Of a DNA stretch of 64,000 nt, positions 12,171-15,391 are shown piece by piece (the first letter of the stretch is position 1; every line of letters starts with the position of its first letter). This DNA is from Chloracidobacterium sp. (lineage in GTDB: Bacteria > Acidobacteriota > Blastocatellia > Pyrinomonadales > Pyrinomonadaceae). The notes beneath the pieces were generated by a model, which saw only the letters and a list, made by a program, of their open reading frames with translations, searched no databases and was not told the origin of the DNA. The translations under genes and the position numbers were made by a program. The stretch is taken from positions 806,001 through 870,000 of the forward strand of contig JABTUB010000002.1 of assembly GCA_015075585.1 (NCBI GenBank). Direction: 5' to 3'.

Positions 12171-12208
12171 ATACGCATTGTATGTTGATCGCTGCATACA
12201 ATGCGTAT
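12171..12208. promoter_or_regulatory. Perfect 14-nt inverted repeat before the XRE remnant (IR2)
   Basis: Arms ATACGCATTGTATG (12171-12184) and CATACAATGCGTAT (12195-12208) are exact inverted copies around a 10-nt centre TTGATCGCTG. The element ends 13 bp before the XRE start at 12222. That is where an autoregulated XRE or C-protein operator would sit. IR1 and IR2 have different arms but the same 10-nt spacing, and both contain TTGATCGC at the left-arm/centre junction. Confidence 0.6.
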
Positions 12209-12221
12209 AGCTTTGATCCCG

Positions 12222-12380
12222 ATGCCAAACAACGCCCTCATCAAGGCCTTCGGCAAACGTATCCGCAGCCTACGCACCGAACGCCGCCTCTCACAAGAGA
12301 AACTCGCCGAACTCACCGGCTTTCACCGCACATATATCGGTATGGTCGAACGAGCCTGTTGTAACATTCTTTACGCTTAA
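12222..12380 (+). pseudogene. Truncated XRE-family helix-turn-helix regulator
   Basis: The 52-codon frame encodes [20 protein letters not shown], then [20 protein letters not shown], and stops after ACCNILYA. This is the first four helices of a Cro/C1-type HTH, as found in R-M controller proteins and phage repressors. The usual continuation after the VERG motif and the last helix is missing. An in-frame ATG at 12201 inside IR2 is an alternative start. The match breaks at about 12352, where base composition drops from GC-rich to AT-rich. I read it as a regulator cut off by arrival of the following island. Confidence 0.65.
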
Positions 12381-12398
12381 TGATTTAATATTGCATAA

Positions 12399-13247
12399 AT
12401 GAAAGTCGAAGCCAGTAAGGGCGCAAAATGTCGATCAAATATTCCTAGGTTTAAGCCTTTCTTGAAATGGGCAGGTGGAAAATCGCAATTGTTGGGTGAA
12501 ATACTACCGCTCATCCCAAGTTCATTCAATAAGTATGTTGAGCCGTTTCTTGGAGGAGGCGCGCTATTCTTTGCTCTTGCCCACAACCCATCGATCATTT
12601 CGGATGCTAATGAAGAACTAATCATTACATATATCGCGATTCGTGATGAAGTGTCGGCAGTAATCGAAGAACTCAAAAGATTTAGAAACACCAAAGAGTT
12701 GTTTTATGAAGTTCGAGCGTGGGATCCATCGTCGTTGCCGTCGGCCAAACGTGCAGCGCGTCTGATTTTCTTGAATAAGACCTGTTTCAACGGATTGTAT
12801 AGGGTTAATAAGAACGGTGTGTTCAACACACCCTATGGTGGAAATCAAAGCACCAAGTTTCTTGAAGGTGAATTGCTTTTAGAAGCTCATCTCGCATTGC
12901 AAAACGCAAGAATAATCTCGGGAGACTACAAGTGTATTCTTCAGAAATATGCGAAGGCTGGAGACCTCATTTTTCTGGATCCACCGTACAAACCGGTCGG
13001 TAGATTTTCAGATTTCAAACGATACACGAAAGAGAGATTTCATGATAACGATCACGTCGAACTTGCGCGTACTTTCAACGACCTTGTCGACCGTGGATGC
13101 AAGGTTATTCTGACGAACTCTGCCCATGAGTCGATTTTTGAACTTTATATGGGGTATGATTGCAGGGTAGTAAATTCTAAAAGGTTAATTAGCAGCAAAG
13201 TAACAACGCGAAATGGAAAGGATCTCATTGTACTCGGAGGATTTTGA
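12399..13247 (+). CDS. DNA adenine N6-methyltransferase, Dam/DpnM-like (D12 class)
   Basis: A 282-residue SAM-dependent methyltransferase, probably the modification enzyme of a type II R-M system. Motif X is FLKWAGGKSQLL (residues 21-32), motif I YVEPFLGGGALFF (46-58), and catalytic motif IV DPPY (194-197) within LIFLDPPYKP. FNGLYRVNKNGVFNTPYG is the typical Dam-family central segment. Closest resemblance by eye is DpnM/Dam, so a GATC-like target is plausible but unproven. The gene is AT-rich (about 40% GC in sampled lines) unlike its flanks. It overlaps the second methyltransferase by 35 bp. Confidence 0.92.
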   Translation: MKVEASKGAKCRSNIPRFKPFLKWAGGKSQLLGEILPLIPSSFNKYVEPFLGGGALFFALAHNPSIISDANEELIITYIAIRDEVSAVIEELKRFRNTKELFYEVRAWDPSSLPSAKRAARLIFLNKTCFNGLYRVNKNGVFNTPYGGNQSTKFLEGELLLEAHLALQNARIISGDYKCILQKYAKAGDLIFLDPPYKPVGRFSDFKRYTKERFHDNDHVELARTFNDLVDRGCKVILTNSAHESIFELYMGYDCRVVNSKRLISSKVTTRNGKDLIVLGGF

Positions 13248-14295
13248 GGCAGACGCTATTAACAATTCCTCGCGAGTCGATCGATTCGACAGATTTCCCG
13301 GAACTCGGTACATGGGAAGTAAGAATCGAATCCTTAATGAGATTTGGGGACATCTCAAGAGTCTGAAATTTGAATCCGTATTGGACGCTTTTGCCGGGAG
13401 TAATGTGCTTTCCTATTTCCTTAAGTGTCGTGAAAAACGTGTCATCACAAATGATTTCCTGCGTTTCAGCCACTTAACGTCTAAAGCGCTGATAGAAAAC
13501 TCAACAGATATTCTAGATCTCGCGGATATTCAATTTCTGATTTCAAAAAATACGAAAAGTAGTTTCATACAAGATACTTTTCGCAATATTTTTTTCAGCG
13601 ATGAGGAAAATGCATTCCTGGATCGTGTACGAGCAAACATTAGCTCACTTGACAGTGAATATACGAAAGCACTCGCATTAGCCGCCCTAACGCGGGCCTG
13701 CATCAAAAAGCGTTCTCGTGGGATATTTACATTCGTTGGCGAGCGATATGATGACGGACGCAAGGATATGCAGAAGTCTATCGAAACTCACTTTCTCGAG
13801 AGTATTGCTATGTTCAATGATGCCGTTTTTGATAATGGAAAGGATAATCGCTCACTTCACGGGCGAACCGAAGAACTGGATATCAAAGCCGATCTCGTTT
13901 ATCTAGATCCGCCGTACTACTCTCGAAAATCAGATAACGATTATGTGCGACGTTATCACTTTGTAGAAGGACTTTCACGAAATTGGGAGGATCTGGAAAT
14001 TCAAGAACAGTCAGCGGTGAAAAAATTTAAGAGCTATTATTCGCCGTTCTCGAAGAAAGAATCGGCGTATTCAGCGTTCGACAACCTCTTTGATCGTTTC
14101 AAGGAGTCTATAATTGTCGTTTCATATTCTTCGAATTGCCTTCCGACAAAGGCGGAAATAGAAGAAATGTTAAGAAACTACAAAGAGTCCGTTATCTGTC
14201 ACGAGATCGATCTAACGTATTCAATAGGAAATCAGGGTCATAAAATTGGTAATAAAAGTAATCGAGTGAAAGAGTATCTATTTATCGCACAATAG
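13213..14295 (+). CDS. Second D12-class DNA adenine methyltransferase
   Basis: A 360-residue methyltransferase distinct from the one upstream. It has GTRYMGSKNRIL (residues 30-41, motif X region), VLDAFAGSNVLSYF (56-69, motif I) and LVYLDPPYYSRKSDNDYV (motif IV DPPY at 232-235). The long insert between motifs I and IV is typical of D12 enzymes from type IIS systems such as FokI or MboII families. Two adenine methyltransferases with one nuclease suggest an asymmetric target, each enzyme modifying one strand. The start at 13213 lies inside the previous gene; a later start is possible. AT-rich. Confidence 0.88.
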   Translation: MERISLYSEDFEADAINNSSRVDRFDRFPGTRYMGSKNRILNEIWGHLKSLKFESVLDAFAGSNVLSYFLKCREKRVITNDFLRFSHLTSKALIENSTDILDLADIQFLISKNTKSSFIQDTFRNIFFSDEENAFLDRVRANISSLDSEYTKALALAALTRACIKKRSRGIFTFVGERYDDGRKDMQKSIETHFLESIAMFNDAVFDNGKDNRSLHGRTEELDIKADLVYLDPPYYSRKSDNDYVRRYHFVEGLSRNWEDLEIQEQSAVKKFKSYYSPFSKKESAYSAFDNLFDRFKESIIVVSYSSNCLPTKAEIEEMLRNYKESVICHEIDLTYSIGNQGHKIGNKSNRVKEYLFIAQ

Positions 14296-14300
14296 CACGT

Positions 14301-15332
14301 ATGAATCTTACTAGCCTCGACGTCCCCCAGGCCGACCGTCTTGAGACGGTAATACAGGTAATAATTAATATTGCAAATGGTGCTCGGTCTGATGTCGAAA
14401 TAATAAGAGGAATTCAAGGGTTATCGGCAGCAAGACAAGGTCGTTATTATCGAAACGCCGCGGAACTATTAGGCTTTGTTGAAAACCATGCGAACAATGC
14501 AACTCTAACTGCAGACGGTCAAAAATTCGTTCAGAATCCGTCGCTGAATAATCCGGCCTTTATTGCAGCAGTTCTCAGATTGGAAGTTGTACAACGGCTA
14601 ATTCCGTATCTAGAATTAGCCGGGAAGGGTGGAGCGATGAGGAGCGACATTGTTACATACCTAAGTTCGCTCGTAGTAAAAAAGATTGGGGCGGTTACTC
14701 TGAATCGCCGCGTCTCCACCATCTTGTCATGGCTTCAGGCAATCAATGTTGTAAATACTCTGAACAATCGATATTACATAACCACGGCGTTTACAGCGAA
14801 TTTACCGGTTGTGGAGATTACGGATGAGGAGCAACGCATATTACCCAAATCTGGAACACTTGAGGAATACAAAGTGGTTCAGGAACGAATTCGTAATGCA
14901 AAAGAATCTGTTGAAGTATTTCGAAACGAGGCCTTAATGGACCGGGCCAGAGTCTCACATCGCCGTTTGGTAAATATTACCTCTGAACGTATCAGAAAGC
15001 ACGGCGCAATTCCCAAATCCAATTCGTTTATTGATTTAGCGGTGTCTTTCAACAAGGACTTTATTTTTGAAATGAAGTCCACGACCGAAACAAATATCCG
15101 ATCGCAAGTTAGAAAAGGTATCAGTCAGCTTTACGAATATAGGTACCTAGAAGATAGTAAAGATGCGACTCTAGTTTTAGTGCTAGAGAACCCATTACAG
15201 AACGCAGACCTTTGGATGCATGATTATCTCGAAACTGATCGCAATGTTCTTTTGGTTTGGGACGGTAACAATAGACTGTTCGGCTCGGATCGTGCCGTCA
15301 AGGAACTCTCATTTTTGAGTCTGAATTCCTAA
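14301..15332 (+). CDS. Putative type II restriction endonuclease (winged helix + PD-(D/E)XK)
   Basis: A 343-residue protein starting 5 bp after the methyltransferase pair. The N-terminal half (about 10-165) looks like two winged-helix units (RLETVIQVIINIANGARSDV; AMRSDIVTYLSSLVV). The C-terminal half carries a PD-(D/E)XK nuclease signature: HRRLVNITSERIRKHG, then FIDLAVSF with D245 and FIFEMKS with E257 and K259, followed by GISQLYEYRYLED (Gln/Tyr after the core, as in Mrr/MrcB-like nucleases). I infer that it cleaves DNA not protected by the two methyltransferases. I do not recognise a named restriction enzyme. Confidence 0.75.
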   Translation: MNLTSLDVPQADRLETVIQVIINIANGARSDVEIIRGIQGLSAARQGRYYRNAAELLGFVENHANNATLTADGQKFVQNPSLNNPAFIAAVLRLEVVQRLIPYLELAGKGGAMRSDIVTYLSSLVVKKIGAVTLNRRVSTILSWLQAINVVNTLNNRYYITTAFTANLPVVEITDEEQRILPKSGTLEEYKVVQERIRNAKESVEVFRNEALMDRARVSHRRLVNITSERIRKHGAIPKSNSFIDLAVSFNKDFIFEMKSTTETNIRSQVRKGISQLYEYRYLEDSKDATLVLVLENPLQNADLWMHDYLETDRNVLLVWDGNNRLFGSDRAVKELSFLSLNS

Positions 15333-15391
15333 ATACAATTCTTAAATTTCAGTCGTGGCTGACGCGACGTCTTCGTTGTTTGATCGAACGT

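Follow-up and report, generated by a model that had tools for sequence, protein, structure and literature searches.

A horizontally acquired three-gene operon of Chloracidobacterium combines two D12-class adenine methyltransferases with a compact, predicted type IIS nuclease

AlwI recognizes GGATC(4/5), and both of its methyltransferases are carried in one chain (Pingoud et al., PMC4081073). In each of M.AlwI, M.EacI and M.GmeI two domains are fused, of which one produces GGm6ATC and the other Gm6ATCC (PMC3526280). Cleavage by a transient dimer is established for FokI-type enzymes (PMC4081073), and a winged-helix module of the FokI-SspB-DndG type has been described before (PMC10853773). The M1-M2-R operon of Chloracidobacterium sp. 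was compared with these systems.

The window is the whole 64,000-nucleotide stretch of DNA that was analysed. Its ORF list contains three genes, M1, M2 and R, all on the + strand and located as in the first-pass annotation (Table 1). The 35-bp overlap of M1 and M2, the 5-bp gap between M2 and R, the DPPY motifs at residues 194-197 of M1 and 232-235 of M2, and residues D245, E257 and K259 of R are all present as that annotation had given them. An island of low GC content had also been proposed, and GC content is indeed 0.40-0.46 across M1-M2-R versus 0.55-0.65 on either flank. The span of the island was refined to a left end near 12354, inside a truncated XRE gene, and a right end near 15340; GC content is already 0.63 again by 15360. 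R is single-copy in the host genome (2.97 Mb, two-contig assembly), and the same operon is also found in one congener (G105, contig C12). M1-M2-R is a genuine, conserved restriction-modification operon, and it is a horizontally acquired three-gene defence operon. The main reading, to which we assign a probability of about 0.7, is that the operon is mobile and encodes a compact restriction-modification system of type IIS with a specificity like that of AlwI. The host genome also holds a second PF02086 gene at G000:C1:223974-224864 (L178), a 613-aa ORF apparently with two methyltransferase modules; an R-like partner for it is absent from that genome.

Table 1. Features of the M1-M2-R island and its left edge (positions in the window).
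Feature	Position	Strand	Evidence
Perfect 14-nt inverted repeat, 10-nt spacer, over XRE start, operator-like	12171-12208	.	Same half-site at L172:4437
Truncated XRE-type regulator gene, 59 aa	12201-12380	+	73% identity over residues 8-56 to congener XRE gene
M1, Dam-family (D12, alpha-class) adenine methyltransferase, 282 aa	12399-13247	+	TIGR00571, PDLC03261, 2dpm
M2, second D12-class adenine methyltransferase, 360 aa	13213-14295	+	PF02086, PDLC03261
R (343 aa), predicted to be a compact type IIS restriction endonuclease	14301-15332	+	Homologues, AlphaFold2 model
Two winged-helix domains of R (DUF7226, residues 1-165), predicted to recognize DNA	14301-14795	+	PF23871, structure matches
RQGRYYR helix, R residues 45-51, conserved	14433-14453	+	R alignment
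R residues 210-343, PD-(D/E)XK cleavage domain	14928-15332	+	Invariant residues, fold matches
Catalytic D245 / E257-M-K259 of R	15033-15077	+	Invariant in 30 sequences

M1 matches the TIGR00571 dam family of NCBIfam (E 3e-72) and the MethyltransfD12 profile (E 3e-51), and has a GGK motif at residue 26. M2 is a D12 enzyme more distant than M1 (PF02086, E 4e-20). In the PADLOC profile PDLC03261, which has 643 positions, M1 aligns to positions 23-284 (E 7e-98) and M2 to positions 305-641 (E 5e-123). Because the two proteins match consecutive halves of one profile, M1 and M2 together represent a split form of the fused methyltransferase. Their two D12 modules fit both halves of the M.AlwI/M.EacI/M.GmeI-type enzyme, which is one chain in those systems and two genes in the window. 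M1 and M2 are about 47-53% identical to the AlwI-linked enzymes end to end; for M2 against the AlwI-linked fused methyltransferases the value is 47-51%, with the target-recognition stretch included. In addition, M1-M2 relatives on plasmids (Geobacillus, Priestia, Acinetobacter and an uncultured host) are single fused proteins, and the gene after each of them encodes a nuclease of the AlwI family. The first-pass proposal that this is a restriction-modification system in which each strand of an asymmetric site has its own adenine methyltransferase is supported by this homology, and sequence relationship indicates that the target is most probably GGATC, modified as GGm6ATC and Gm6ATCC.

The proposed mechanism is as follows. 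The target would be an asymmetric site that contains GATC, most probably GGATC, and M1 and M2 would each methylate the adenine of one of its strands. When the site is unmethylated, R would bind it with the two winged helices of its N-terminal half. The PD-(D/E)XK domain of R, probably paired with that of a second R molecule in a transient dimer, would then cut the two strands at a distance of a few bases from the site. Methylation would thus protect host DNA, and incoming unmodified DNA would be cut.

The same architecture could instead serve another asymmetric site, either another GATC-containing pentamer or a GATN core, if the specificities of the methyltransferases drifted after the split from M.AlwI. 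This is possible, and we consider it rather unlikely. First, identity of about 50% to the AlwI-linked methyltransferases leaves room for drift. Secondly, the M1 hairpin after FNTP reads YGGNQSTKF in the window's own subclade versus YGKYKNPKI in the AlwI/Dam form, so the exact target could differ from GGATC. Third, other two-methyltransferase type IIS systems recognize GGATG, GCATC or GATG (PMC12898733, PMC9799307). In a test for avoidance, GGATC was no rarer in the window (observed/expected 0.81, counted over the window only) than in relatives (0.83), and these counts give the GGATC reading no help. However, the target-recognition stretch KKR.RGIFT..G.RY.DGR.D is common to M2 and the AlwI-linked enzymes, R and AlwI nucleases are exchanged within one methyltransferase clade, and the RQGRYYR helix of R is near-invariant, all of which argue against drift. 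A DpnI cassette in the same slot at another locus, described below, also fits a GATC-type mark.

A type IIP system like DpnII or MboI, in which the site would be palindromic GATC and the two GATC methyltransferases partly redundant, is improbable. M1 is Dam/DpnM-like (E 9e-52 to the DpnM structure 2dpm), and single M2-like enzymes adjoin DpnII-family nucleases in some loci, which shows that relatives of M2 can work on other kinds of site. However, M2 belongs to the D12 class, and DpnA, the second DpnII methyltransferase, belongs to a different one. M1 and M2 also belong with the GGATC family. Lastly, R had no Pfam match to a DpnII/MboI-type nuclease, and its layout of two winged helices and a nuclease is that of type IIS enzymes.

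R was analyzed in an alignment of 30 sequences, comprising 29 full-length homologues and the window sequence. The DUF7226 profile matches R with E 2e-11, a match that, like those of M1 and M2, is not due to chance, and PF23871 was matched in all 30 members; PDDEXK_9 was matched weakly in 21 of them. D245, E257, K259 and Q269 are invariant in our alignment, as is most of RQGRYYR. An AlphaFold2 model built from the 30 sequences had a pLDDT of 88.9 and a pTM of 0.82; an earlier model from only 3 sequences (pLDDT 47) was too poor for use. The N-terminal winged-helix units proposed in the first-pass annotation are borne out by this predicted structure. Residues 5-163 of the model align with FokI (2fok) at Z 10.2 and 2.8 A over 157 residues, and the N-terminal stretch also aligns with Nt.BspD6I (Z 9.7-9.8), SspB (Z 9.1) and the BpuJI recognition domain (Z 8.2). 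On the basis of the model, R appears to belong to the FokI-SspB-DndG fold group. For residues from about 217 to 343, the matches are to proteins of PD-(D/E)XK type with Z scores near 8, a range where chance matches are common; these include AF2093 (Z 8.1), an XisH-family protein (Z 8.0) and PaqCI (Z 7.8).

The top Foldseek match of the model was Nt.BspD6I (E 3e-5), an AlwI-family enzyme in which both halves align with R in the same order; unlike R, it is longer and a nickase, and identity is about 10%. FokI (GGATG 9/13) is like R in its tandem winged-helix recognition half, separate PD-(D/E)XK half and two-methyltransferase logic, and the tandem winged helices are evidence of a shared fold and not proof of descent. 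FokI is longer, at about 580 aa, and its Pfam families, for recognition and cleavage domains alike, were not matched by R at E 1 or by the 30 members at E 0.1. As in type IIS enzymes, recognition and cleavage domains are separate in R, and there is one methyltransferase module per strand, the strands being assigned by homology only. For AlwI, hhalign against six AlwI proteins aligned R 43-78 with AlwI 67-107 (E 9e-5), a short match of 36 columns with a probability of only 59, in which the aligned stretches have the pattern GR..R..L.LGFI...LT..G in common and may represent a shared winged helix. PF09491, the AlwI family, was not matched by R at E 1 or by the 30 members at E 0.1, while the AlwI protein of locus L066 matched it with E 3e-120. 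AlwI-type nucleases are also about 550-585 aa long, and their cleavage half has no detectable sequence relation to that of R. Sequence searches of solved structures with R or its profile returned only a sialidase and EDF1, which were rejected as chance matches. A family for R is absent from NCBIfam and PADLOC. In Geobacter metallireducens, an unnamed ORF of 333 aa between M.GmeI and GmeIP, flanked by Gmet_3138 and Gmet_3140, is similar in length to R and lies beside a fused GGATC methyltransferase (PMC3526280).

The first-pass view that R could not be linked to known enzymes is not supported, since its recognition half has the FokI/Nt.BspD6I fold and a weak AlwI profile match covers the same winged helix. 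An end-to-end alignment of R with any named enzyme was looked for and was absent in the libraries searched, so R forms a new family within a known kind. The earlier phrase "new restriction-enzyme type" was too strong in this respect, and only the novelty of the family is retained. That R is a regulator or decayed partner, leaving M1-M2 as an orphan modification pair, is highly improbable: a few R relatives stand without methyltransferases and some R genes are truncated, but D245, E257, K259 and Q269 are invariant in 30/30 full-length sequences from at least ten phyla, the ORF is intact and the operon order is conserved.

A genome scan for R gave 56 loci, and 29 of these hold full-length homologues with 29-49% identity. 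For 26 of these homologues, M1-M2 adjoin R and M2 is its direct neighbour; the M2 of L037 is matched only as far as residue 328. R relatives without adjoining M1-M2 were found in L022, L026 and L046, and that of L026 adjoins a 1080-aa methyltransferase-like protein. The gene order is R-M1-M2 in L039, M1 and M2 are fused in L036, L038, L039, L040, L042 and L056, and R is truncated in L012 and L052-L055. The phyla represented, at least ten, are Bacteroidota, Acidobacteriota, Verrucomicrobiota, Ignavibacteriota, Chloroflexota, Armatimonadota, Planctomycetota, Desulfobacterota, Cloacimonadota, Fidelibacterota, two Patescibacteria lineages and FCPU426. A search of 395 genomes from the phylum to which L046 (a Desulfatirhabdium MAG) belongs revealed no further case of a complete R next to a fused methyltransferase. 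No relative turned up in phage records or viral contigs, so a phage origin is without support. A small CarS-SH3-like protein (89-122 aa, GCGQT/R.P.DPMIGV) lies just before R or an R fragment in L041, L049, L054, L055 and L007.

Both methyltransferase trees place the AlwI-linked enzymes among those linked to R, and M1 and M2 group with them. The M2 tree unites the AlwI-linked enzymes and the R-linked L012 and L056 in a 100/100 clade, which lies among the other R-linked enzymes; within it, L012 (R-type) and L019 (AlwI) are sisters (100/97). In the M1 tree, the AlwI-linked enzymes likewise lie inside the R-linked set. This nesting indicates that the nuclease was swapped on a shared modification module. 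The R gene of L012 is only a 152-aa N-terminal stump, so the case for a full-length R inside the AlwI clade rests on L056. In Sporomusa (L066), an AlwI gene and an R homologue in two ORFs lie near one fused methyltransferase.

The two halves of R also occur separately. The C-terminal domain ends larger proteins of about 400-520 aa, which lie beside C5 methyltransferases or other genes, and the N-terminal domain opens a DptF-like protein. Relative to AlwI, R has a recognition half that appears to be AlwI/FokI-like, and its cleavage half is another domain that is joined elsewhere to other N-termini. We infer that R consists of a reader and a cutter, both free to combine with other partners. On a Priestia plasmid, a gene annotated as dptF (L002:5986-8382) adjoins a fused methyltransferase-AlwI pair, and its start is 35% identical to R residues 7-160. 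DUF7226-like winged helices were also seen directly beside Dam-like methyltransferases (L084:622-2379 and L085:33-1923), N-terminal in one protein and C-terminal in the other; this placement suggests that they may be a reader module of GATC type.

The operon is located between ffh and a heptosyltransferase gene (window:10486-16546; loci L160-L175 were compared). This interval is nearly empty in four congeners (about 80-230 bp in G227, G804, G805 and G799) and larger in others, where its restriction or defence genes vary between genomes. Examples are a C5-methyltransferase and XRE gene, a Vsr gene and Schlafen-type helicase, an Mrr-type nuclease and CHAT protein, a type III-like methyltransferase-Res pair, or an AAA ATPase. 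The interval is a defence hotspot in the genus. The truncated XRE gene upstream of M1 matches the gene beside the C5-methyltransferase system at the same site in one congener (G360, L172). Homology stops near residue 51, at about 12354, which was taken as the left junction of the island. With this remnant of a C5 system at its edge, the operon was probably inserted over a restriction system that had been there before. The XRE gene was also considered as a controller of M1-M2-R and was rejected, since its reading frame is cut short and its match is to a different system at this site. The operator-like inverted repeat belongs to the XRE remnant and not to M1-M2-R.

At several other loci the core of the operon appears to have been replaced in place. 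In L053:4613-6723 (the same locus as L006:125-2235), DpnI and a DpnD-like gene are bordered by a fragment of M1 (residues 7-86) on one side and a fragment of R (from residue 104) on the other, and this DpnI matches the S. pneumoniae enzyme with E 8e-97. The methylating operon here appears, from its sequence remnants, to have been replaced in place by a methyl-directed nuclease. In L041, L047, L052, L054 and L055, a protein of roughly 240 aa takes the place of the M1 end, M2 and the R start. Its N-terminal part is winged-helix-like (HARE-HTH only E 0.08), its C-terminus is PD-(D/E)XK-like, no Pfam family fits it well, and the L047 copy is broken. For example, L055:4106-6524 and L038:4078-7025 have DNA identities of 88.8% over M1 and 82.4% over the R end, with a cassette of 1.07 kb in L055 instead of 1.60 kb in L038. 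The left breakpoints differ among L055, L054 and L041, which are from different Verrucomicrobia. By analogy, these loci recall the DpnI/DpnII exchange and the Neisseria drg (dam-replacing gene), where an m6A-GATC-directed nuclease occupies the former place of a GATC-type methyltransferase gene, as in L053 (PMC516771, PMC4269198). Unlike in those cases, the cassette lies within the operon between remnants of M1 and R, and nucleases of a second family occupy the same slot at the other loci. Winged-helix m6A-dependent nucleases, some beside inactivated methyltransferases, have been described (PMC11037411). Taken together, we tentatively propose, at somewhat less than even odds, that R founds an unrecognised minimal type IIS family, with an AlwI/FokI-type winged-helix reader and a different, freely shuffled PD-(D/E)XK cutter, and that the operon joins a recurrent in-place switch to nucleases attacking the methyl mark (DpnI and a putative m6A-dependent winged-helix nuclease), in which the M1 and R ends are left as possible homology arms.

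The results are of interest for several reasons. First, a mechanism and a testable target are proposed for a nuclease family that Pfam covers with DUF7226 alone, the C-terminus being unassigned, and this family recurs across many phyla, mostly in uncultured lineages. Secondly, a type IIS enzyme of 343 aa would be a useful small FokI-like tool. Third, AlwI and R on one methyltransferase clade are a natural experiment in which the restriction nuclease was swapped and modification was unchanged. Lastly, the replacement loci make a DpnI/DpnII-style conflict directly testable outside Streptococcus and Neisseria.
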